Origin: Pseudomonas sp. St316
GTDB lineage: Bacteria > Pseudomonadota > Gammaproteobacteria > Pseudomonadales > Pseudomonadaceae
Assembly (NCBI RefSeq): GCF_018325905.1
Contig: NZ_AP021901.1
Coordinates: forward strand, 4,154,001 to 4,218,000
Length of the DNA stretch: 64,000 nt
Direction of reading: 5' to 3'
Below the pieces are notes generated by a model. That model did not search any database and had not been told where the DNA came from. It worked only from the letters and a program-made list of their open reading frames with translations. Of the stretch, positions 23,531-38,269 are shown in pieces; positions within the stretch are counted from its first letter, which is position 1; the number at the start of each line of letters is the position of its first letter. Both the position numbers and the translations under genes were made by a program.

Positions 23531-24831
23531 ATGGCCGTCAGTCCTTTTGCAGCCGATATTGCTTCACTGTGGCAATCCACGGCCGTTGACGCTCCGTCAT
23601 TTCCAGCGCTGGAAGGTGATCGAAGCTATGACGTGGTCGTGGTGGGGGAGGCTATACCGGGTTGTCCACGGCACATTATTTGGCGAAAAAAGGGCTGGCA
23701 ACAGTGGTGCTGGAAGCCAGTCGCATCGGCTGGGGGGCGAGCGGTCGAAATGGTGGCGTGGTGTCGGCCAAGTATCGTATCTCGCTGAGCAAGGTGGCGG
23801 CGCGATACGGACTGGAGATGGCTCAGACTATGCGTCGTCTATCCCTTGAGTCGGTGGAACACCTTGAGGAGCTGGTGGCGGTTTATTCGCTGGAAGCGGC
23901 GCAATATCGGCGCAGCGGCAGCCTGCATTGTGCGCACAACGAAGCCACGCTGGACTACTGTGTGCGGGAGGCGCAGTGGTTGCATGAGTATTTGGGGGAT
24001 AGCTCCTTCGAAGTGCTCTGCGCCGGTCAGATGCAGGAGGAAACCGGCTCTGGCGATTTTGTCGGCGGCGTCCTCGACAGAGGTGGAGGCTTGTTACACC
24101 CATTGAACTTCGTCCGGGGGTTGGCCGACGGTGTGAGCGCGGCGGGAGTCAGTATTCATGAGGGCGCGCCCGTCATGGGCATTCGGCGGATGGGGACGGG
24201 CGTCAGGGTGGAGACACCTACTGGCACTGTCCGTGCCAAGCAAGTCGTGTTGGCTACTAACGGTTACTCGAGCCTAACGCCAGCTACTGCGCCTGTGCGC
24301 AAATCGGTTGTGCCTTTTCGTTCGGCGATGCTGGCCACCGAGCCTCTCACCGGCCCGCAGCTGGAGTTGTTGCGCCACGGCCGCAGCTACACCGAAACGC
24401 GGCGGATGATGCGCTGGTTTCGGATGGTCGAGGACCGTCTGTTGTACGGCGGTCGCGGTGCGTTCGGCACGGATGACTCCGAGGCGGCTTTCAATGCCTT
24501 GCACGAAGCGATGGTCAAGCAGTTTCCCCTACTCGCCCGTGCGACCATCACCCATCGTTGGTCGGGGCTGGTGGCGCTCACAATTGACAGTGTGCCGCAC
24601 GTCGGACGGATTGATGACCGCGTGGTCTATGCCATGGGTTACAACGGCATGGGAGTGGCCATGTCCTCATACATCGGTAAGCATGTCGCAGATGTCATCG
24701 TTGGGCGGAAGCCAGAATTGGGGTTGATGTGGGCGGACAAAGTACGCCGTATACCTTTTTATTCGCTGCGAGTACCCGTGGTTCGAATGGTCGCCGGTTG
24801 GTATCAGTTTTTGGACGCCATCGGACGCTGA
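23531..24831 (+). pseudogene. FAD-dependent oxidoreductase (DAO family) with a one-base frameshift
   Basis: Relative of gamma-glutamylputrescine oxidase/D-amino-acid dehydrogenase proteins, about 430 residues if intact. Translation from 23531 (GAGGAAG site) gives the family N-terminus up to YDVVVVG; the rest, from STAHYLAKKGLATVVLEA onward, is in another frame (open from 23662 to 24831). Adding one G to the five-base G run at 23644-23648 restores the FAD motif GGGYTGLSTA. The remainder is complete: SGRNGGVVSAKYRISL, and the C-terminal YAMGYNGMGVAMS. It is either a fresh pseudogene or a base-calling error. Confidence 0.8.
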
Positions 24832-28602: not shown

Positions 28603-29445
28603 ATGCGTGTGGTGTCAGTGGTATCCACCAAAGGTGGAGTGGGAAAAACAACAGTGGCTGCCAATCTTGGCGGTCTGCTAGCGGATGCTGGCCTACGCGT
28701 CCTGCTGCTCGATCTGGATAGTCAACCCACTCTCTCGAGCTATTACGCTTTGAACCACGAGGCCCCCGCCGGTGCGTACGAACTCATTGCACTCAATCAA
28801 ACAGATCCTGAGCAGATAATCTCCATGACCGAGGTCGTCGGTCTCGATCTGATCCTCTCGAACGATGACCAAGGCCGACTGAGTACCTTACTACTTCACG
28901 CCCCGGACGGGCGATTACGGCTGCACAATTTGCTCGACCATTTCCGTACCCGTTATGACCTGCTGTTGATCGACACCCAAGGCGCACGTAGCGTGCTACT
29001 GGAGATGGCCGTCCTGGCATCCGATCTCGCCCTTTCTCCCATCACACCGGAAATGCTCGCAGCGCGCGAGCTACGTCGTGGCACCTTGAAGTTGCTCAGC
29101 GAACTCGAACCGTTCCGCCACTTGGGCATTTCACCACCCCCCTTACGATTGCTACTGAACCAAGTGAACGCCCTTCGGATGGACACTCGAATGATCATCT
29201 GCGGTCTGCGGAAGACCTTCGCTGGGGCTACCAACATCTTCGTTCTAGACACCGTAGTTCCAGACCGAGTGGCGTATCTCAATGCCGCCTCTCTCGGTCT
29301 GCCCGTACACCGAATTGAGACGCGCCGGTCAGGTAAACGACGCTCAGCCTCGGCACTGGAAACTATGCAAGCGCTGGCCATCGAGTTATTTCCGGAGTGG
29401 AGCACAGCAATCTCTACAGTAAGCAGGTACGAGGAGGCTCAATAA
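28603..29445 (+). CDS. parA: ParA/Soj-family partition ATPase
   Basis: 280-residue ATPase. The deviant Walker A STKGGVGKTTVAANL (residues 8-22) and the Walker A' LLLDLDSQP identify ParA. In PAPI-1/pKLC102-type islands Soj helps maintain the excised circular form. It follows alpA by four bases and precedes a short gene and parB. The protein is of typical length. Confidence 0.92.
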   Translation: MRVVSVVSTKGGVGKTTVAANLGGLLADAGLRVLLLDLDSQPTLSSYYALNHEAPAGAYELIALNQTDPEQIISMTEVVGLDLILSNDDQGRLSTLLLHAPDGRLRLHNLLDHFRTRYDLLLIDTQGARSVLLEMAVLASDLALSPITPEMLAARELRRGTLKLLSELEPFRHLGISPPPLRLLLNQVNALRMDTRMIICGLRKTFAGATNIFVLDTVVPDRVAYLNAASLGLPVHRIETRRSGKRRSASALETMQALAIELFPEWSTAISTVSRYEEAQ

Positions 29446-29531
29446 AATGAGTCGCCAAGCCGGTATCTCTCGCCAAGTCATTTTAGTTTGATTGACCTTG
29501 AGGCCAACGGTGTTTGGCAAGGAGTCTCTTT

Positions 29532-29741
29532 ATGCTGGATCACCTTCCCATCATCGTTCAACCACCTCATCGACTAAACCACCCACCTTGCGAGGGGTAC
29601 TGCACCGTAGTTTCTCGCCTGCAGGGTGGGCGCTCGGCCATAGGATGGCTCCTCGCAGAGCTTTCTCACCATTTCGAAGGTTCGGGCACTGCCGAGATCG
29701 TCAAGTTCGAGGTCGACGACAATTTGTACAACCAGCGTTGA
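29532..29741 (+). CDS. Small protein between parA and parB
   Basis: 69 residues, starting MLDHLPIIVQPPHRLNHPPC and including CTVVSRLQGGRSAIGWLLAEL. An AAGGAGT site six to seven bases upstream supports translation. It occupies an alternative frame to an upstream extension of parB, which is one reason to place the parB start at 29756. I think similar short proteins occur at this place in related ICEs; no function is known. Confidence 0.6.
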   Translation: MLDHLPIIVQPPHRLNHPPCEGYCTVVSRLQGGRSAIGWLLAELSHHFEGSGTAEIVKFEVDDNLYNQR

Positions 29742-29755
29742 CTGAGGTTGCTCAA

Positions 29756-31327
29756 ATGAAAAAGCTTAATCAGGAGCAGATCACCGACAAACTGCATCAA
29801 GACCACTTCCCTCGGGGTCCAGAACTGGAGCGGCTTTCCGATCCACTCATCGACACGCCTATGCTGGTCACGCTGGAGCAGCTACGCCCCTACGAACACA
29901 ACCCGCGCTTCATTCGTAATCCGCTGTACGACGATATCAAGGCGTCCATCCGTGAACGCGGATTGGATCAACCTCCGCCGATTACCCGCCGCCCGGGAGA
30001 AACCTATTTCATCATCCGCAACGGCGGTAATACGCGCTTGGCGATTCTCGGCGAGTTGTGGCAGGAAACCCGCGATGAACGCTTCTTCCGAATTCATTGC
30101 CTGTTCCGCCCCTGGAGCAATGAAATCACCGCCCTGCTCGGCCATCTGGCTGAAAGCGATCTGCACGGCCAACTCACCTTCATTGAGCGTGCGCTGGCGG
30201 TAGCCAAACTCAAAACCATGTTCGAACTAGATGGAGCGACACTCTCGCAACGAGAGCTGGCGCGCCGTCTTGCCGCTGGGGGCTACCCCATTTCACAGCC
30301 GCACATCAGCCGGATGCTCGACACCCTCGAACACCTCCTGCCCGCCATTCCACAAACCCTGTATGCCGGATTGGGTAAACCCAAAATTGAACGTTTGATC
30401 GGTCTGCGTAGCCAGGCTGAACGAACCTGGAATCGTTATCCAACCGACATCATTGCGTTCCCCGAGTTTTGGCTCGAAACCTTGAGCCAATTTGATGCCG
30501 ATCCCGAGTCTTTCGATCTTGAGCAAATCCAGGATGAGCTGCTCGAACGTATGAGCCGCTTGCTCGGACAGTCCTACCGCATGTTGGCCTTGGAGCTGAG
30601 CGCCACACAACGGCCTGGCATTGTCATCACGCCTTCAGAGAACAGCCACCTACCGAGCGTTGATGAAGCCGCGGCAGGACCTCCCCCCTCCGAGTCCCGC
30701 CCCCCATCAGTTGAAACTAGAACCCGGACCGAAACAGCGCGAGACGAGCAGCTCACGCTGCCCGAAACGAATGTCGCATCAGCAGTCAGCCCTCCGTCAC
30801 GTGTCCAAAAAATTCGCGAACAGATTGATCGCGACACTGCCACCGAACCAACACCGAACGTCGCAACCTGCACGATCGACGACATCTGGATCATCGCACC
30901 AATACTGGATACCCCCGAACAACTACGTTTAGCCATTGCCGGACTGGCTCGGGAAATGGCGGCCTATGCAGGACATCCCGAGAGCATCATCGATCAGAAG
31001 TATGGCTTGGGCTTCGTCCTGAATATCGAGCAACTTGATCTTGCAGCACCTCGTGCAACCGGCGTTCACCTATTGCTCCTGGCCCTGCTGCGTGCCCAAG
31101 ACGACGTGAACTGGGAGGATCGCAAGCAATTGCCCTCAGCCTTGTTCGGGCAACTGCTATTGGGGGTCTATGAACTCCCGCTGACAGATCGTCCCGCCGT
31201 GGACGTAGGACTGGAGCGTCTGCCCGACGGTCTCTTAATCAAACTGTATCGCCTCATTCGCTTAGCTCGACGCTTGATCGACTTGACGCTTACCGCTGAA
31301 GGCGGCTCACCAAAGGAGGAGCTATGA
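29756..31327 (+). CDS. parB: ParB-family nuclease/partition protein
   Basis: 523 residues. The ParB/Srx N-terminal fold shows VTLEQLRPYEHNPR, SIRERGLDQPPPITRR and RNGGNTRLAILGEL (about residues 37-105), then a helix-turn-helix region (TLSQRELARRLAAGGYPISQPHISRMLDTLEHL). A long Pro/Thr/Glu-rich linker about residues 285-350 leads to a C-terminal helical domain. This longer ParB type is characteristic of ICEclc/PAGI-2-like elements. It likely binds a centromere site on the element and works with ParA. GAGG lies before the ATG; the next gene overlaps by four bases. Confidence 0.88.
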   Translation: MKKLNQEQITDKLHQDHFPRGPELERLSDPLIDTPMLVTLEQLRPYEHNPRFIRNPLYDDIKASIRERGLDQPPPITRRPGETYFIIRNGGNTRLAILGELWQETRDERFFRIHCLFRPWSNEITALLGHLAESDLHGQLTFIERALAVAKLKTMFELDGATLSQRELARRLAAGGYPISQPHISRMLDTLEHLLPAIPQTLYAGLGKPKIERLIGLRSQAERTWNRYPTDIIAFPEFWLETLSQFDADPESFDLEQIQDELLERMSRLLGQSYRMLALELSATQRPGIVITPSENSHLPSVDEAAAGPPPSESRPPSVETRTRTETARDEQLTLPETNVASAVSPPSRVQKIREQIDRDTATEPTPNVATCTIDDIWIIAPILDTPEQLRLAIAGLAREMAAYAGHPESIIDQKYGLGFVLNIEQLDLAAPRATGVHLLLLALLRAQDDVNWEDRKQLPSALFGQLLLGVYELPLTDRPAVDVGLERLPDGLLIKLYRLIRLARRLIDLTLTAEGGSPKEEL

Positions 31328-31872
31328 ACCTGTCCTTCAATGTGCTCAACCAGGCCATGCTGACTCAGGTCCTTCACGAGTTGCGCCTGGGTAACCTGCA
31401 ACGCTGCAAAGCACTCGGGCTGGGTGAAGAGGACATTTACCTGTTGCAATCCTTACCGCCCACCACACTGTCACGCCTGGCCCATGCCACCGTCCCCTGG
31501 GTTGAGATCAAGATTGATTCGTCGGTGCTACATCGCTTGATCGACCAGGCCGAACGCGACGAACAGAACGAGCGCCTGATCAACCGAGCGCTCAAGCTCG
31601 GTGCCAGCAGTACTATCATGTATCAATGCTTTGGCTTGGCGCATTCGGAAACCGCCCTGCGCCGACGTCTGCTCAAGATAGAAACCCGTAAGGGCCGCCC
31701 TCAGAACTTGAGCGAAGCGCAGGAACATGCGCTCTGGCAGCGTTGGTGCCAGCTACGCGCTCAGGACGGTGCTGAGGATCAGCTCGACGCCATGATGATG
31801 TTGGCGGAGGAGCAACAGATCAGCTTGGCCATCGTTTGGCAGCAGATCGACCATTACAGCAACGGAACATGA
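31324..31872 (+). CDS. DUF2857 family protein (STY4526-like)
   Basis: 182-residue soluble protein found between parB and the replication gene in this ICE family. It begins MNLSFNVLNQAMLTQVLHEL, with an FlhC-like helical character, and includes LARLAHATVPWVEIKID-type sequence. A role as a regulator is possible since DUF2857 proteins have an FlhC-like appearance, but nothing has been shown here. It overlaps parB by four bases upstream and the replication gene by four bases downstream. Confidence 0.8.
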   Translation: MNLSFNVLNQAMLTQVLHELRLGNLQRCKALGLGEEDIYLLQSLPPTTLSRLAHATVPWVEIKIDSSVLHRLIDQAERDEQNERLINRALKLGASSTIMYQCFGLAHSETALRRRLLKIETRKGRPQNLSEAQEHALWQRWCQLRAQDGAEDQLDAMMMLAEEQQISLAIVWQQIDHYSNGT

Positions 31873-33056
31873 ATACCACCCCGTCCAGTCGCTGGCAGCG
31901 TGTTCTGCAGCAATGCACCCAACAGTTGAGTGAACACTGGCCCGCACGCCCGACCACGGAACCACCCTCCAACCAGGCCCTTCAGGCTGGCTTTCTTTTC
32001 AGCGGCCAATCACACGAAGTCGTGCCGCGTCGCCTGCTGCTGGATTGTCGGCTGACTCCGCTGGAACGTAATGCATGGCAAGTATTTCGACTCATGCTGC
32101 AGGGCCAGGGAGTGGTCACCCCGCGTTATGAAGATCTGCAACCTTACCTGTCGAGCGTTCCCTATGGTGTATCAGCCTCCCGCGAAACCATCGCTCGCGT
32201 CCTTACGATGCTTAGGTTGACGCGCTGGCTTAGCTTGGTGAGTCGTGGCCGCGATCAGCTCAGCGGGCGCCTACAAGGTTCTCTGTATGTCCTGCACGAT
32301 GAACCGTTAACTCCCGCCGAAGCCATGGAGCTGGATCAGGATTATCTAGAGCTGGTCGGAAATGCCCTCGATCATGCGAGCAAAGCTGTACGTATTGTCG
32401 CGCAGCACATTGTGAAAGACATCCACCAAGACACGGATATCGACCTGGGTCGACTCCCCACCCGGCTCGACAGTTGGAGCGAACATTGGACACATCAAGG
32501 ATTGGATCAAGGAACCGATGAAGCGCTACACGATTCCGAACTGGCAGGTGATCACCGCGTTCGGAATCGAGTGAAACCTAGTCCGGATTCCGAACGGGGT
32601 CTGAACGCCGCTGTTTCCGGCACCGTTCGGAATCCGAACACCGCCTGTACTGTATTAAAAGAAAGTATTTGTACTGTACCGCGCGCAACCCCAGCGGTGG
32701 ATAACCTGCACTGGCCCGATCCTCTGCAGCTGAGCCCAAGCGAACGTCAGGCGGTCACCGTGGCGCTGGGCAAACTTAAACCAGCGGATCGACAGGCAGT
32801 GCTCAACGAAGCGGGCGCGCGATGTGCCGCCGGTGGTATCCGCAAACCAGCGGCCTATCTGATGAGCCTGATCCAGCGAGCGCTGAAAGGCGAGTTTCGT
32901 CCTTGGGCCGGTCAGGCTGAATCGCTACCTATTGCTGAACCGCCACCCGTCCCGTCACGCCCACTTAGAAAACGGGGCGAACCCGCCTCTGCCCTTGCCC
33001 AAGCATGCCTGAATGAGTTGCGCCAGCTGCGTGGCAAACGCCCTGGACGTCAGTAG
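31869..33056 (+). CDS. STY4528 family island replication protein
   Basis: 395-residue protein encoded in ICE replication modules. The N-terminal two thirds contain a winged-helix-like domain (TPLERNAWQVFRLMLQGQGVVTPRYEDL, about residues 62-100; VSASRETIARVLTMLRLTRW about 100-120), which fits a DNA-binding initiator. A poorly structured linker about residues 215-275 is encoded by DNA carrying four copies of GTTCGGAATC in alternating orientation and an A+T-rich patch (32532-32678). The C-terminal part is rich in helices (LSPSERQAVTVALGKLKPADR). The start at 31869 overlaps the preceding stop. Function as initiator is inferred. Confidence 0.82.
   Translation: MNTTPSSRWQRVLQQCTQQLSEHWPARPTTEPPSNQALQAGFLFSGQSHEVVPRRLLLDCRLTPLERNAWQVFRLMLQGQGVVTPRYEDLQPYLSSVPYGVSASRETIARVLTMLRLTRWLSLVSRGRDQLSGRLQGSLYVLHDEPLTPAEAMELDQDYLELVGNALDHASKAVRIVAQHIVKDIHQDTDIDLGRLPTRLDSWSEHWTHQGLDQGTDEALHDSELAGDHRVRNRVKPSPDSERGLNAAVSGTVRNPNTACTVLKESICTVPRATPAVDNLHWPDPLQLSPSERQAVTVALGKLKPADRQAVLNEAGARCAAGGIRKPAAYLMSLIQRALKGEFRPWAGQAESLPIAEPPPVPSRPLRKRGEPASALAQACLNELRQLRGKRPGRQ
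32532..32678. repeat. Iteron-like repeats and A+T-rich box inside the replication gene (candidate oriV)
   Basis: Four copies of GTTCGGAATC or its complement occur at 32532-32541 (minus), 32559-32568 (plus), 32586-32595 (minus) and 32625-32634 (plus); the last extends into a palindrome GTTCGG-AAT-CCGAAC to 32639. Start-to-start spacings are 27, 27 and 39 bases. Directly downstream, the direct repeat TGTACTGTA (32646-32654, 32670-32678) brackets an A+T-rich stretch. Such iterons plus an A+T-rich element within an initiator gene resemble the lambda O-gene origin. Confidence 0.6.
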
Positions 33057-33200
33057 ATTTGATGCCACTGGCATCAGTGCCGAGCGTCTTAGAAATTAGC
33101 CGTCTCGAACCAAACCGAACAGACCGCATTCAGCTTTTTGGCTGTCCTTGACCTTTATCTGTCGCAACGTTCCCGTCCAAGCAGATGCGAGGACAACACC

Positions 33201-33956
33201 GTGGCCGATCACTATCAGCTTAACCTGGGCTCATTGCGCAGCAGCATCACCCTGACACTGCACACCCACCACGCCGCCCGTATCTGGCAAGGACGAACCG
33301 CACGTGAAGGCGTCCATTCGATCATGGGCATGGCCGGCTACATCAGTGTCACCAACCTGATGAAACAAACTGCGGCCCAGGACGACCCCTATGCCGATTG
33401 GGCCATCGTGCAACTCGAAGAAAAATTGACGCAGGCCAAAGCCGGGATGCTGGAACTGACCCAACAATTGGATCGGATCAGACAGGATCTGCCGACGCAG
33501 ATCGACATGAGCGATAACCTCAATATCCACCCCGTCACCTTGCCCTTGTACATCGGCAGCCAACTGGGGTTCCTCGCCGTCTACCTGCTGACTGACTACG
33601 ACACGCTGGTGCGCCACACCCTGCTTGCTCATCACACCGCCTTGATTGGTCGCAGAGACATGGAAGCCTGGATAGACGACGGTGCTCATCTGCTGCGCAG
33701 CCTGTTCGGCCAGGCGCAGCGTTATCGACTTGCAGGTGTCACACGCGATGACATGGCCGCAAACAATGCCCGCGCACTGGCAGCCATGGAAAAGTTTGGA
33801 TTGCCCCCCATGGACATCCTTGAGGGACATGGCCGTTCCCAGTTCGCGCCACCGATCATTCGTCGTGGCGCTGTGCCAGTGGATGACGCTGATGCGTTGA
33901 TGGAGGACGCGGTAGCCTCATCTGCGGCAGTGAATGGGCCGGAGGACGAAGCATGA
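33201..33956 (+). CDS. PFL_4669/TIGR03761 family ICE protein
   Basis: 251 residues from a GTG at 33201 preceded by GAGGAC; an upstream ATG at 33138 is possible but adds a non-conserved leader. The family is found only in integrating conjugative elements, next to the replication and ssb genes. Features: LGSLRSSITLTLHTHHAARIWQGR at the N-terminus and DDMAANNARALAAMEKFGLPP later. No catalytic motif is seen. It overlaps the DUF3158 gene by four bases. Confidence 0.85.
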   Translation: MADHYQLNLGSLRSSITLTLHTHHAARIWQGRTAREGVHSIMGMAGYISVTNLMKQTAAQDDPYADWAIVQLEEKLTQAKAGMLELTQQLDRIRQDLPTQIDMSDNLNIHPVTLPLYIGSQLGFLAVYLLTDYDTLVRHTLLAHHTALIGRRDMEAWIDDGAHLLRSLFGQAQRYRLAGVTRDDMAANNARALAAMEKFGLPPMDILEGHGRSQFAPPIIRRGAVPVDDADALMEDAVASSAAVNGPEDEA

Positions 33957-34471
33957 GTCCCATGACACCCGTTCAACCATTGCCCCGCGAAGCATTGACA
34001 CCGGATGCCTATCGACAACTCGAACACGCTGCCTCCCTAAAAGGCCTTTTAAAACCTTTTAAGGGTAAGGGGGAGCTGGAACACCTGGCACAGATGGCGA
34101 GGGAAATCGAGGCGCAGTTATGTCACCTGATGGAGGCCGTGGTGCAGCAAGCCGCACAACCTCCTTACTCACTGCTGAATATTCGATTGGTGCTGCAGAA
34201 CACCAGTGCAGGCAGCACATTTTTGCGTTGGCGTACCCGTGACTTCACTCGTATGGGGGTTGCGGTCTGGGAACGCCAAGTCTCCAACAAAGCCTTGCTG
34301 CAAGCCATACGCGAGGGATTGTACCGTTTCGAATGCGAGCGCATTGCGCTGAACTTGCAGATGAGCGTGGTGCATTCGCTCTACCGCCAGGCATCGACCT
34401 GCGCGATCAAAATGGCCAGTGCCGAACGGCTGCTAAGCCAACTCACAACCGCAGTGGAGGTATCAGGATGA
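33953..34471 (+). CDS. DUF3158 family ICE protein
   Basis: 172-residue protein with the family pattern (LKGLLKPFKGKGELEHLAQM about residues 29-48; LRWRTRDFTRMGVAVWERQV about residues 95-115). The family occurs between PFL_4669-type proteins and ssb in ICEs and its function is unknown; the context points to DNA processing or replication. Translationally coupled to both neighbours by ATGA overlaps. Confidence 0.82.
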   Translation: MSPMTPVQPLPREALTPDAYRQLEHAASLKGLLKPFKGKGELEHLAQMAREIEAQLCHLMEAVVQQAAQPPYSLLNIRLVLQNTSAGSTFLRWRTRDFTRMGVAVWERQVSNKALLQAIREGLYRFECERIALNLQMSVVHSLYRQASTCAIKMASAERLLSQLTTAVEVSG

Positions 34472-34935
34472 GTACTTTTTTTGTCGGCGAAGGCAACATT
34501 GGCAGTGCGCCAGAGTTCCAGGAATTTTCATCAGGCAATGACGAGCCACGGCGTTTGCTACGGCTGAATGTGTACTTTGACAACCCCGTGCCACGCGAGG
34601 GTAGCTATGAAGATCGAGGCGGCTATTGGGCGCCAGTTGAGCTCTGGCACCGCGAGGCTGAACACTGGAGTACGCTGTACCAGAAAGGTATGCGTGTGTT
34701 GGTCGAAGGCCGGACAGTGCGCGATGAGTGGGAGGACGCCGAAGATAACGCCCGGGTGACCTTCAAAATCGAAGCCCGTCGAGTCGGCATCCTGCCTCAT
34801 CGCGTGCAGAACGTGGTCATGCGGGAACGATCCAGTGAACAGACGACGGCTGCAAAACAGGTCGAGCAAAGTGCAGAGCGGACCAACAATCAGAGTTCGT
34901 CAGCGACCTCAAAACCCAGAAAACGTAAAGAGTAA
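34468..34935 (+). CDS. ssb: Single-stranded DNA-binding protein
   Basis: 155-residue OB-fold protein: FVGEGNIGSAPEFQEF at the start, LRLNVYFDNPVP and ALWHREAEHW-like core with GMRVLVEGRTVRDEWED, then a hydrophilic tail. It differs from chromosomal SSB in length and in lacking the acidic DDDIPF-type tip (it ends KPRKRKE), as other ICE-borne SSBs do. It would coat the transferred or replicating single strand. Coupled to the DUF3158 gene. Confidence 0.82.
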   Translation: MSTFFVGEGNIGSAPEFQEFSSGNDEPRRLLRLNVYFDNPVPREGSYEDRGGYWAPVELWHREAEHWSTLYQKGMRVLVEGRTVRDEWEDAEDNARVTFKIEARRVGILPHRVQNVVMRERSSEQTTAAKQVEQSAERTNNQSSSATSKPRKRKE

Positions 34936-35138: not shown

Positions 35139-36149
35139 ATGCCCGAGACCAAAAGCCGAGCGGTGCTCAAGGTCTCACGGCTTGGGCATCGTTTCTTTTC
35201 CCACAAGCCAGGTGAGCGCAAACTCAGTCAAACAGGCGGCGAAAGCGATGATCATGTCATGCTTAAAATTAAAACGCTTTTTGCTGCCACAGCCGCGGGT
35301 TGGTCTGCACTTCCTGAGCAGTCAGGGGTAACAGCTTCCGGCAAATTCTATCGGGCTGACGTTCTTTGTACTCATCCGAATGGCAAGACCAAGGTGGCTG
35401 TCGAAATACAACGATCAACACAGCGTGATGTCGACTACGAGGAGCGTCAGAGAGTCTACGTGGAAGCAGGTATTCGCTGTATCTGGATCGACATTTCCAA
35501 GAAAGCGTATCGTCATCACATCAGCAAGCCAACCAAAGCACTTCCTCGATTTGAGTGCAAGCGTGAGTCTCCCGACAGTACTGGCACCTACCTCGTATCC
35601 ATCGAAAAGCAAGACATCGACTTCCCTGAATTTATTCAAGGAGCACTCACGGGAAAACTCAGATTCATTGAGCACGAAGTGAATACCTCCCTTCACCACA
35701 TCAGAGTCCATCGAAAGCGGTGCTGGAGCTGCAAAATTCACATCTGTTTACTAGACCCGGAATTTACTGAGGATCTAGTACGGCAGATGCCGAAAATCGT
35801 CTCCACGATCCATCGCAAGACCACGCACATTCAAGATATGTGCAGGATCAAGCTGATTCACTTCAAAAAAAGAGGAGTCAAAGAGCACGTCTCATGCTGC
35901 CCACACTGTGGTATTGCGCAATCCTATTCTGAACTGGACCACAGGTTTGAATTGGCTGATCACGTGGCGTTTCTCGCCATTGCCCGACCTACCGGTCTTT
36001 TACCCAGAAGGTTCTGGTCTTGGGAGACTCACCCGAAACTTGAAATGCTTCCGCTCCCAGGAGCCGCATTTCTTATCACAGGAGAGCCTGACGACGACTC
36101 CGCATTGCTTGAGATCCTGCGCGAAAACCTTAAAGGGTGCCATTGGTAA
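35139..36149 (+). CDS. CoiA-like nuclease-domain protein, 5' end frameshifted
   Basis: 336 residues from the ATG at 35139. The segments GHRFFSHKPGE, GGESDDHVMLK, FYRADVLCTHPNGKTKVAVEIQRS (a restriction-like D-ExQ nuclease core) and the Cys pairs CWSC/CCPHCG match competence CoiA-like proteins. The usual N-terminus is present but in another frame: from 35020 one reads LDGTPVVSVFLTEN, while EWKTEALNKSRDLF is in the main frame; one base appears lost near 35095. If 35139 is used, about 35-40 residues are missing. Lies between ssb and topB; may process incoming or transferred DNA. Confidence 0.7.
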   Translation: MPETKSRAVLKVSRLGHRFFSHKPGERKLSQTGGESDDHVMLKIKTLFAATAAGWSALPEQSGVTASGKFYRADVLCTHPNGKTKVAVEIQRSTQRDVDYEERQRVYVEAGIRCIWIDISKKAYRHHISKPTKALPRFECKRESPDSTGTYLVSIEKQDIDFPEFIQGALTGKLRFIEHEVNTSLHHIRVHRKRCWSCKIHICLLDPEFTEDLVRQMPKIVSTIHRKTTHIQDMCRIKLIHFKKRGVKEHVSCCPHCGIAQSYSELDHRFELADHVAFLAIARPTGLLPRRFWSWETHPKLEMLPLPGAAFLITGEPDDDSALLEILRENLKGCHW

Positions 36150-36301: not shown

Positions 36302-38269
36302 ATGCGCCTCTTTCTTTGCGAGAAACCTTCCCAAGGTCGTGACATCGCCAAGGTTCTCGGAGCCAACCGGCGCAGTGATGGCTGCCTGATCGGACCCGAA
36401 ATAACCGTTACCTGGTGTGTCGGCCACCTGCTTGAGGCCGCCCCACCCGAAGCCTATGGCAAGCATCTCAAATCCTGGTCACTGGACCACCTCCCGATCA
36501 TTCCCAAGCAATGGCAGGTCGAGGTCAAGCCCAAGACAGCGGCACAGTTCAACGTCATCAAACGTCTGCTCAGCGAAGCTCGCACCGTTGTCATCGCCAC
36601 CGATGCCGATCGAGAAGGCGAAATGATTGCCCGCGAGCTACTGGAACTCTGCAATTACCGAGGCCCCGTTCAACGCCTCTGGTTGTCGGCACTCAATGAG
36701 GCGTCGATTCGCAAGGCATTGTCCTCGCTCAAGTCTGGTCAGGAGACTTTTCCACTCTACCACTCAGCCCTCGCCCGCAGCCGGGCTGACTGGCTGATCG
36801 GCATGAACCTCAGTCGTTTGTTCACCCTTCTCGGACGGCGAGCGGGCTACGAGGGCGTATTGTCCGTTGGACGCGTACAGACCCCCACATTGCGTCTGGT
36901 GGTCGATCGAGATCGTGCAATTGCCAGCTTCGTCTCGGAGCCCTACTGGGAAGTGGATGTGCACCTGTCCTCAATGGGACAACCATTCATCGCGTCGTGG
37001 TTACCACCCAGCTCAGGGAGTGACGAGGCCGGCCGTTGCCTAGAGCAGGCGCTTGCCAGTCAGACCGTCGAAGCGATCTTCAGCAGTAAAACCGCCACAG
37101 TACTCTCGCTGCAGACTGAGCATTTCCGCGAAGCGCCACCCCTACCCTTCGACCTGAGCACACTGCAAGAAGTCTGTTCACGCAAGCTGGGGCTTGGCGT
37201 TCAAGAAACCCTGAACATAGCCCAAGCCCTATATGAAACGCACAAAGCCACCAGCTATCCGCGCAGCGATTGCCGCTATTTACCAGAGAGTATGTTTAAC
37301 GAGGTACCCACAGTTTTCGATGCCCTGCTCAAAACGGATCCCGCACTACGGCCTGCGCTCGGAAGCCTCGATCAATCATTGCACTCCCCCGTTTGGAACG
37401 ATGCCAAGGTCACCGCGCACCACGCCATTATCCCCACCAGCGAGCCGGCGAACCTTGCGCGGATGTCCGAACAAGAACGCCAAGTCTACGAACTGATTCG
37501 CAGCCACTACCTTGTGCAGTTTCTTCTACATCATGAGTTTGATCGGACCCACGTAGAACTGGAGTGTGGTGAAGAGCGACTGACCGCCGTTGGCAAACAG
37601 ATCCTGGTTCAGGGTTGGAAAGGTTTGCTCTACGAAAACACCGAGGAGGATGAGCCCAATCAAAAGGCCCAAGCTTTACCAGTCTTGCAACAGGGTACTC
37701 ATTGCGCCGTGGACGACGTCGAACTCAAGTCCATGCGCACCGCCGCTCCCAAAGCGCTGACCGAGGGCGATCTGATCAAGGCCATGAAAAATGTGGCCAA
37801 GTTGGTCAACGATCCACGCCTGAAACAGAAACTTCGGGAAACCACCGGTATCGGTACCGAAGCCACACGCGCCGGCATCATCAAGGGATTGATTGATCGT
37901 GGTTATTTGCTAAAGAAAAAACGCGCCTTAATAGCCTCGGCGGCGGCCCATACCCTGATCGAGTCGGTACCCGTTGCAGTCACTGATCCGGGTATGACCG
38001 CGATCTGGGAGCAGGCTTTGGACGAAATCGAAGCGGGACGTCTGAGCCTGGATGCGTTCGTCGCCAAGCAAGTGAATTGGATAGCGCAGCTGGTCGCAAG
38101 CTGCGGCTCACTTACTTTAGCCATGACTATCGAAGCCGGTCCGGTCTGCCCCATTTGCGATGCCTCAATGCTCAGGCGTAAGGGAAAATCAGGGCCGTTC
38201 TGGTCATGCTCGCACTATCCGGACTGTAAGGGCACTGTGCCCATCAGAAAAGATACGCGTCGCCCGTGA
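36302..38269 (+). CDS. topB: DNA topoisomerase III
   Basis: 655-residue type IA topoisomerase encoded by the ICE. The TOPRIM domain starts MRLFLCEKPSQGRDIAKVLG and includes the metal motif ATDADREGE near residue 100; the active-site Tyr lies in ATSYPRSDCRYLPE near 317; a C-terminal zinc-finger-like CPICDASMLRRKGKSGPFWSCSHYPDC completes it. It would decatenate or relax the element during conjugative replication, as other TraE/TopB plasmid enzymes do. An upstream hairpin covers its ribosome site. Confidence 0.95.
   Translation: MRLFLCEKPSQGRDIAKVLGANRRSDGCLIGPEITVTWCVGHLLEAAPPEAYGKHLKSWSLDHLPIIPKQWQVEVKPKTAAQFNVIKRLLSEARTVVIATDADREGEMIARELLELCNYRGPVQRLWLSALNEASIRKALSSLKSGQETFPLYHSALARSRADWLIGMNLSRLFTLLGRRAGYEGVLSVGRVQTPTLRLVVDRDRAIASFVSEPYWEVDVHLSSMGQPFIASWLPPSSGSDEAGRCLEQALASQTVEAIFSSKTATVLSLQTEHFREAPPLPFDLSTLQEVCSRKLGLGVQETLNIAQALYETHKATSYPRSDCRYLPESMFNEVPTVFDALLKTDPALRPALGSLDQSLHSPVWNDAKVTAHHAIIPTSEPANLARMSEQERQVYELIRSHYLVQFLLHHEFDRTHVELECGEERLTAVGKQILVQGWKGLLYENTEEDEPNQKAQALPVLQQGTHCAVDDVELKSMRTAAPKALTEGDLIKAMKNVAKLVNDPRLKQKLRETTGIGTEATRAGIIKGLIDRGYLLKKKRALIASAAAHTLIESVPVAVTDPGMTAIWEQALDEIEAGRLSLDAFVAKQVNWIAQLVASCGSLTLAMTIEAGPVCPICDASMLRRKGKSGPFWSCSHYPDCKGTVPIRKDTRRP

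Follow-up and report, generated by a model that had tools for sequence, protein, structure and literature searches.

A candidate vegetative origin of replication within the STY4528-family gene of a Pseudomonas integrative and conjugative element

INTRODUCTION

In the O protein of phage lambda, DNA binding resides in an N-terminal part that is distinct from the C-terminal one. Within the coding sequence of its gene lie four 18-bp iterons and 38 bp of A+T-rich DNA (PMC3349717). The repABC plasmid p42d also carries oriV in its initiator gene, repC; this oriV depends on an A+T-rich stretch, which can be abolished by silent mutations, and repC is described as having neither iterons nor DnaA boxes (PMC3155836). 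Among genomic islands, PFGI-1 of Pseudomonas fluorescens Pf-5 was assigned a putative oriV in 2009, consisting of four 23-bp palindromes with the core GTTCGGAATCCGAAC immediately upstream of PFL_4669; its authors took G+C-rich 46-bp repeats as the second half of oriV and stated that no Rep protein is encoded (PMC2647930). The PFGI-1 array presumably lies in an STY4528-type gene. Iteron-like repeats were also mentioned for ICEHin1056 and likened to those of pKLC102, SPI-7, and PAPI (PMC2258188). An oriV at such a position in islands of this type has been suggested before (PMC2647930, PMC2258188). The STY4528 gene of ICEHin1056 is, by order and size, orf5, called an ssb homologue, and it was not among the six module genes disrupted in that element (PMC3739013); that of ICEclc is, by gene order, orf96323, for which the available text gives no function (PMC7423338).

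Here, we describe an array of palindromes and an A+T-rich box inside an STY4528-family gene. As in lambda O and ori-lambda, four iterons are followed by an A+T-rich stretch within the coding sequence of a presumed initiator; unlike in lambda, none of the 39 family members scanned matches Phage_rep_O (PF04492) at an E value of 1 or below, DnaA-box words occur in many members, and the element is an integrative and conjugative element (ICE) with ParA/ParB, a single-stranded DNA-binding protein (SSB), and topoisomerase III. The gene resembles repABC repC in its in-gene oriV candidate, in having partition genes in the same operon, and in a winged-helix profile similarity, but its main feature, in contrast to p42d, is a set of palindromic iterons. 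With the putative oriV of PFGI-1 it shares the palindrome core and a place upstream of a PFL_4669-type gene. In the open-licence literature on STY4528, on ICE oriV and iterons, and on ICEclc, we found no paper that places or tests an origin inside an STY4528 gene. What appears to be new here is the link between origin and initiator, the family-wide evidence at the DNA level, and the clade-specific iteron sequences.

RESULTS AND DISCUSSION

The STY4528 gene and its neighborhood

The gene sits in a 6.78-Mb genome of one contig, from which we analyzed a 64-kb stretch, here called the window; coordinates are those of the window unless a locus is named. The segment was typed as an ICE, with genes for TraD, a TraC-type ATPase, and TIGR037xx ICE proteins downstream. 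The module, all on the plus strand, runs from parA (28603..29445, profile match) through a ParB-family gene (29492..31327, TIGR03764), a DUF2857 gene (31324..31872, profile match), the STY4528-family gene (31869..33056, NF040582), whose 395-residue product is the presumed replication initiator, and a PFL_4669/AcaB-family gene (33138..33956, TIGR03761 and PF08900) to the genes for SSB (34333..34935, with the profile match starting at residue 46) and topoisomerase III (36302..38269, profile match). To judge from family and gene order, the counterpart of the ParB-family gene in ICEclc would be that of BisD, and that of the DUF2857 gene is BisC (PMC7423338). An open reading frame of 336 codons between the SSB and topoisomerase III genes (35139-36149) has no NCBIfam match at an E value of 1e-10 or below. 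Across STY4528 loci, the neighborhood is of a replication type, with SSB, topoisomerase III, and often DnaB; no DnaB gene was found between positions 24000 and 42000 of the window. Alongside STY4528, the genes listed (in an incomplete gene table) for ICEHin1056 and the 82-kb plasmid NZ_CP124633 include DnaB and an STY4534-family "ICE replication protein" but no further plasmid-type Rep. A Pantoea plasmid bearing the module has, in addition, a replication initiation protein of its own. The module occurs a second time in the genome of the window itself (L178; G000:C1:1863000-1877000), where the STY4528 protein is 88% identical and its gene contains two perfect palindromes, GTTCGGATTCCGAAC and GTTCGGAATCCGAAC; ParA was not detected in this 14-kb stretch.

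The window protein scores 342.5 bits against NF040582 (cut-off, 130) and thus belongs to the STY4528 family. HTH_36 matches occur in 7 of 39 family members (best E value, 1.1e-10), a family-level count rather than an assignment of the window protein, and fit a winged-helix DNA binder. Similarity to RepC is limited to the winged-helix fold (hhalign probability of 71.7 over 38 columns) and to sub-threshold C-terminal matches to RP-C_C (PF11800) in 8 of 39 members (best E value, 0.045), short of an established full-length homology. The window protein itself has no match to PF03428 (RepC) and scores 12.9 bits against PF11800, below the gathering threshold of 32.6 (E value, 0.14). Matches to PHROGs were weak, the best (E value, 0.0025) being to a family of unknown function and three being to named replication initiation families (E values of 0.027 to 0.035). 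A sequence search of solved structures gave ribosomal protein S17 as the best match (E value, 0.0013), which we judged to be due to chance. One protein outside the family (L147:1240-2772) has a Phage_rep_O (PF04492) N terminus and a C terminus that weakly matches STY4528 (E value, 2.5e-5), and its gene holds five 20-nt direct repeats; the habit of placing an origin in the initiator gene may, on this example, reach beyond STY4528. At L176:7095-7278, another replication-like gene contains tandem iterons of 23 bp within its coding sequence; an GGTGGTTGTGGTGGT inverted repeat lies nearby.

Palindromic sites, A+T-rich box, and DnaA-like word

A sequence-only reading of this DNA had reported four copies of the 10-mer GTTCGGAATC in alternating orientation, and we recovered all four, exact and where it had placed them, with starts 27, 27, and 39 bp apart. 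The window contains no exact copy beyond these; with one mismatch allowed, three further copies appear, one of them overlapping the fourth site. Synonymous shuffling of the gene with the protein held fixed gave four copies in none of 20,000 trials (mean, 0.28; maximum, 3), which rules out chance or codon bias as the source of the repeats. We refined the repeat unit to a 15-bp palindrome, GTTCGGAWTCCGAAC, present as two full and two half copies, here called S1 to S4, whose centers lie 32, 22, and 44 bp apart.

Searches for relatives returned 359, from which we kept the best 80 loci; 48 of these are close, at 77 to 99% identity. The close loci comprise 47 named Pseudomonas and one gammaproteobacterial MAG, and the best of them, among the best 80 of 359, belongs to P. 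lini (99%). Each of the 48 retains two or more exact 10-mers, and all four are present in 27 (the counts in L070 and L078 cover the whole locus rather than the gene alone), so that the repeats are retained in close homologues, a point on which the sequence-only reading had staked its claim. In L073 and L076 the STY4528 frame is broken, by decay or sequencing error, and the sites are kept (four and three exact 10-mers, respectively). Leaving out these two loci and L030, which enters the family-wide comparison below, the comparison of codons among close relatives used 47 genes with 40 distinct sequences, to which the clade counts below refer.

The two half-type sites, S1 (CACGATTCCGAAC; 32529..32541, minus strand) and S2 (GTTCGGAATCGAG; 32559..32571, plus strand), form a 13-bp inverted pair with the clade consensus CACGATTCCGAAC/GTTCGGAATCGTG, and the clade word is found in 31 of 40 sequences at each site. 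S3 (GTCCGGATTCCGAAC; 32581..32595) is a 15-bp palindrome with one substitution in one arm in the window. It is the most variable site: it reads as perfect GTTCGGATTCCGAAC in 15/40, GTTCGGAATCCGAAC in 5/40, and GTTCGGATTCCGAAT in 13/40 sequences, is a perfect palindrome in 23/40 whatever the center, and ends in GAAT in 13/40. S4 (32625..32639) is the perfect palindrome GTTCGGAATCCGAAC, identical in 29/40. The consensus S3 is translated as RSDSE and S4 as VRNPN, that is, in a different codon phase. Downstream, a direct repeat of TGTACTGTA (32646-32654 and 32670-32678) brackets, as first reported, a 33-bp stretch with 25 A+T positions (76%; 32646..32678), a candidate DNA-unwinding element at which the most A+T-rich 36-mer of the gene also falls. 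An CCGCGCGC run follows (32679..32686); of 40 family genes, 17 show a comparable CG run within 140 nt. The last element is a DnaA-box-like word, TTATCCACC (32696..32704, minus strand; 8/9 match), which is a perfect TTATCCACA in at least 8/40 clade sequences and where codon choice is nearly invariant (valine as GTG in 38/38, aspartate as GAT in 37/38, and asparagine as AAC in 40/40). The clade consensus of the 40 sequences thus reads CACGATTCCGAAC, inverted GTTCGGAATCGTG, the palindromes GTTCGGATTCCGAAC and GTTCGGAATCCGAAC, CTGTACTGTATTAAAAGAAAGTAtttGTACnGTACCGCGCGCGACC, and GTGGATAACCTG, the reverse complement of the last containing GTTATCCAC.

Selection on the linker-coding stretch as DNA

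We asked whether synonymous positions in this part of the gene vary less than codon usage would predict. Synonymous divergence relative to codon usage was 0.184 in codons 221-285, compared to 0.467 elsewhere in the gene, among the 40 distinct sequences of the window clade. None of 20,000 random draws of codons gave a value as low, and across 370 circular shifts the true position alone reached it. Codons whose third base lies inside an element averaged 0.126, while other codons of the interval 200-300 averaged 0.351. A separate, ICEclc-type clade of 29 distinct sequences showed the same pattern (0.236 versus 0.581). Conservation of the repeats in excess of the amino acid constraint, proposed as a check in the sequence-only reading, is therefore present in both clades. 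That reading had confined the array to 32532..32678; its sites stand, but its limits do not, since the constraint at the DNA level spans 32529 to approximately 32720 (codon 285).

The family at large was represented by 66 genes (61 loci, the window gene, and four close copies), reduced to 41 representatives under 90% identity. Inverted pairs of 9-mers in the linker numbered 498 versus 17.3 expected from synonymous shuffling with the protein fixed (100 shuffles per gene), and the flanking control domains were near expectation (29 versus 23.9 in the N-domain and 10 versus 5.9 in the C-domain). At the level of single genes, P values of 0.02 or below were reached by 30 of 41 linkers, none of 41 N-domains, and 1 of 41 C-domains, with 11 linkers missing this threshold; since sequences within clades share history, the 30 significant linkers are not 30 independent events. 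Palindromes were likewise enriched in the linker (92 versus 17.6 expected; controls, 24 versus 19.3 and 17 versus 10.3). Direct repeats (533 versus 37.0) are a weaker measure on their own, since the control domains also exceed expectation about twofold (65 versus 30.3 in the N-domain and 18 versus 7.2 in the C-domain).

Exact GTTCGGNNNCCGAAC words are read in all three codon phases (15, 10, and 2 occurrences), and L114 and L122 are single genes that read the word in all three. Sites are most often spaced 44 bp apart (27 of 58 spacings), which does not correspond to a whole number of codons. We rejected selection on the peptide as the main cause, because one and the same palindrome is translated in more than one codon phase and it is third bases that are constrained. 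By three tests, namely, divergence, shuffling, and codon phase, the linker-coding stretch is selected as DNA. Helical phasing of the sites is suggestive only, with an R of 0.82 (period of 11) for 58 spacings of shared ancestry and an R of 0.44 for the 15 distinct values.

Layout across the family

In-gene palindromic arrays of clade-specific sequence are found in most of the STY4528 family. Between clades the iteron sequence shifts, mostly in both arms and at all sites of a gene together, and the layout is largely kept. The arms are GTTCGG..CCGAAC in the window clade and SPI-7-like members, CTTCGG..CCGAAG in the ICEclc type, GAGTTCGG..CCGAACTC in pKLC102-like members, and GAGTTCC..GGAACTC in ICEHin1056; more distant members have AAGTTCAA..TTGAACTT, GTGTGCA..TGCACAC, or an imperfect AAGTAAAG..CTTAACTT. 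No clear iteron palindromes were found, by our criteria, in the clade of L007, L008, L010, and L011. The iterons are usually followed by an A+T-rich box between flanking GTACGTA-type or GTAGTAGT/ACTACTAC repeats. In 39 of 40 genes (the partial L017 being left out), the 36-mer with the highest A+T content falls within the linker, though off the box in L012, L113, and L115, for example. Of 41 genes, 16 contain perfect TTWTNCACA boxes, all of them in the linker, and 25, the window gene included, contain none. The linkers of L006, L011, and L013 have runs of TAG triplets and then TAA triplets in the A+T box (GTAGTAGTAGTAATAA), resembling the DnaA-trio motif.

Origins of the pKLC102 type are known for 57-bp repeats. 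Like the window gene, the STY4528 gene of L114, a plasmid that we take to be pKLC102-like, carries in-gene palindromes; unlike the window, L114 shows a G+C-rich 57-bp unit repeated in tandem 16.6 times immediately after STY4528 (L114:20048-20994). No tandem array of this type was found after the window gene, up to position 33400.

Restriction of the motif to STY4528 genes

With up to one mismatch, GTTCGGAWTCCGAAC occurs at five places in the whole genome: two each in the window gene and in the other STY4528 gene (at 1.870 Mb), plus a single place outside them, compared to one place for the reversed-pattern control. The core of the A+T box, GTACTGTATTAAAAGAAAGTATT, with up to three mismatches, was found only in those two STY4528 genes. 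A blind search for GAGTTCGGNNNCCGAACTC in 298 Pseudomonas genomes returned 27 sites in 14 genomes, all 27 of which fall within the STY4528 alignment (14/14 loci). A second search, for paired TTCGGAWTCCGAA words 20 to 50 bp apart in 199 genomes contained in the same 298, so that the counts overlap, gave matches at 29 loci in 28 genomes; of the 28 loci examined, 27 lie wholly inside the STY4528 alignment, and in L207 the array is at or past its end. The reversed-pattern controls of both searches gave no matches in the listed genomes. Given this exclusivity, we rejected a genome-wide regulator box as an explanation of the motif.

Alternative explanations

The main rival to an origin is a centromere of the parS type, bound by the neighboring ParB-family protein for partition of the excised element, since a ParB-family gene adjoins STY4528 in 31 of 35 loci scanned (the other four being truncated at contig ends or falling outside STY4528 proper). 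A small cluster of 15-bp palindromes close to parA-parB is what such a centromere might look like, and the physical linkage of the STY4528 and ParB genes means that covariation cannot separate the two proteins. However, in every clade where sites were found they lie inside STY4528 rather than beside parB, and they come with an A+T-rich stretch and often with DnaA boxes. Moreover, in ICEclc the ParB homologue BisD forms part of a transcription activator together with BisC (PMC7423338). We regard a centromere as unlikely.

Still less probable is an operator, by which STY4528 or BisDC would bind in midgene and control its own or the downstream operon. Inverted repeats commonly serve as operators, the adjacent genes encode BisDC and AcaB-family regulators, and joint removal of orf96323, orf95213, and inrR from ICEclc lowered expression from the integrase promoter (PMC7423338). 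On the other hand, no sigma-70-like promoter was found between 32300 and 33250, and the AcaB-family gene lies anywhere from less than 0.2 kb to approximately 4.1 kb from STY4528 among the loci scanned. The palindrome is also nearly absent elsewhere in the genome and is therefore not a regulon-wide BisDC box. A structured regulatory RNA acting in the mRNA is the least credible alternative: the strand folds far better than shuffled sequences (z = -4.97, DNA parameters), S1 pairs with S2 and S3 with S4, and arm mismatches of S3/S4 are mostly G-T (25/31, chiefly the outermost C to T), but each site is a palindrome by itself in other clades, S1:S2 mismatches have no wobble preference (7 G-T/T-G versus 8 C-A/A-C of 20), and an RNA element would not be expected to come with an A+T box or with DnaA boxes oriented either way.

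A candidate oriV inside the presumed initiator gene

The vegetative origin (oriV) of the element is probably the part of the STY4528 gene that encodes the linker, in an arrangement like that of lambda O. The iterons lie in the coding sequence between conserved N- and C-terminal parts, and an A+T-rich stretch adjoins them. In terms of sequence features, repeated candidate initiator sites next to such a stretch are also what an iteron-type oriV would have, and as to a DnaA box, the window has an 8/9 match and at least 8/40 clade sequences a perfect one. Our comparisons show selection at the DNA level, inside STY4528, on palindromic iterons, on a conserved A+T box, and, in many members, on a DnaA box. 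The proposal of an origin within the initiator-like gene, made in the sequence-only reading, thus gains support from synonymous constraint in two clades and from in-gene arrays across the family.

In such an origin, a putative winged-helix N-domain of STY4528 would bind the iterons, with a dimer on each palindrome, after which the A+T box would melt. The C-domain, together with DnaA where a box is present, would then recruit the DnaB helicase, which is encoded by the element in some relatives and, since no DnaB gene was found around the module, is presumably the host's in the case of the window element. SSB and topoisomerase III of the module could then support copying of the excised circle. 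GC skew gave no origin signal in the plasmid-borne NZ_CP124633, NC_011409, and NZ_CP099732. In ICEclc, the increase in copy number depends on the TraI relaxase and oriT1, which argues against an oriV reading and suggests that rolling-circle copying is a main route in that element. Without TraI or oriT1, multiple foci persist in a very small fraction of cells, and the authors mention alternative mechanisms (PMC6561031).

A broader reading is one that we advance tentatively, judging it slightly less likely to be right than wrong: all STY4528-bearing ICEs (ICEclc-, pKLC102-, and SPI-7-like elements, ICEHin1056, and relatives) might be cryptic plasmid-type replicons with the origin in the initiator linker, in which iterons and initiator diverge as one self-contained unit, a habit shared by phage-O-like and plasmid Reps with a related C-terminal domain. 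If our reading is true, an origin within the gene would explain the plasmid-like self-copying of these widespread elements after they leave the chromosome, and the union of origin and initiator in one gene would let origins be located in many elements from sequence alone.
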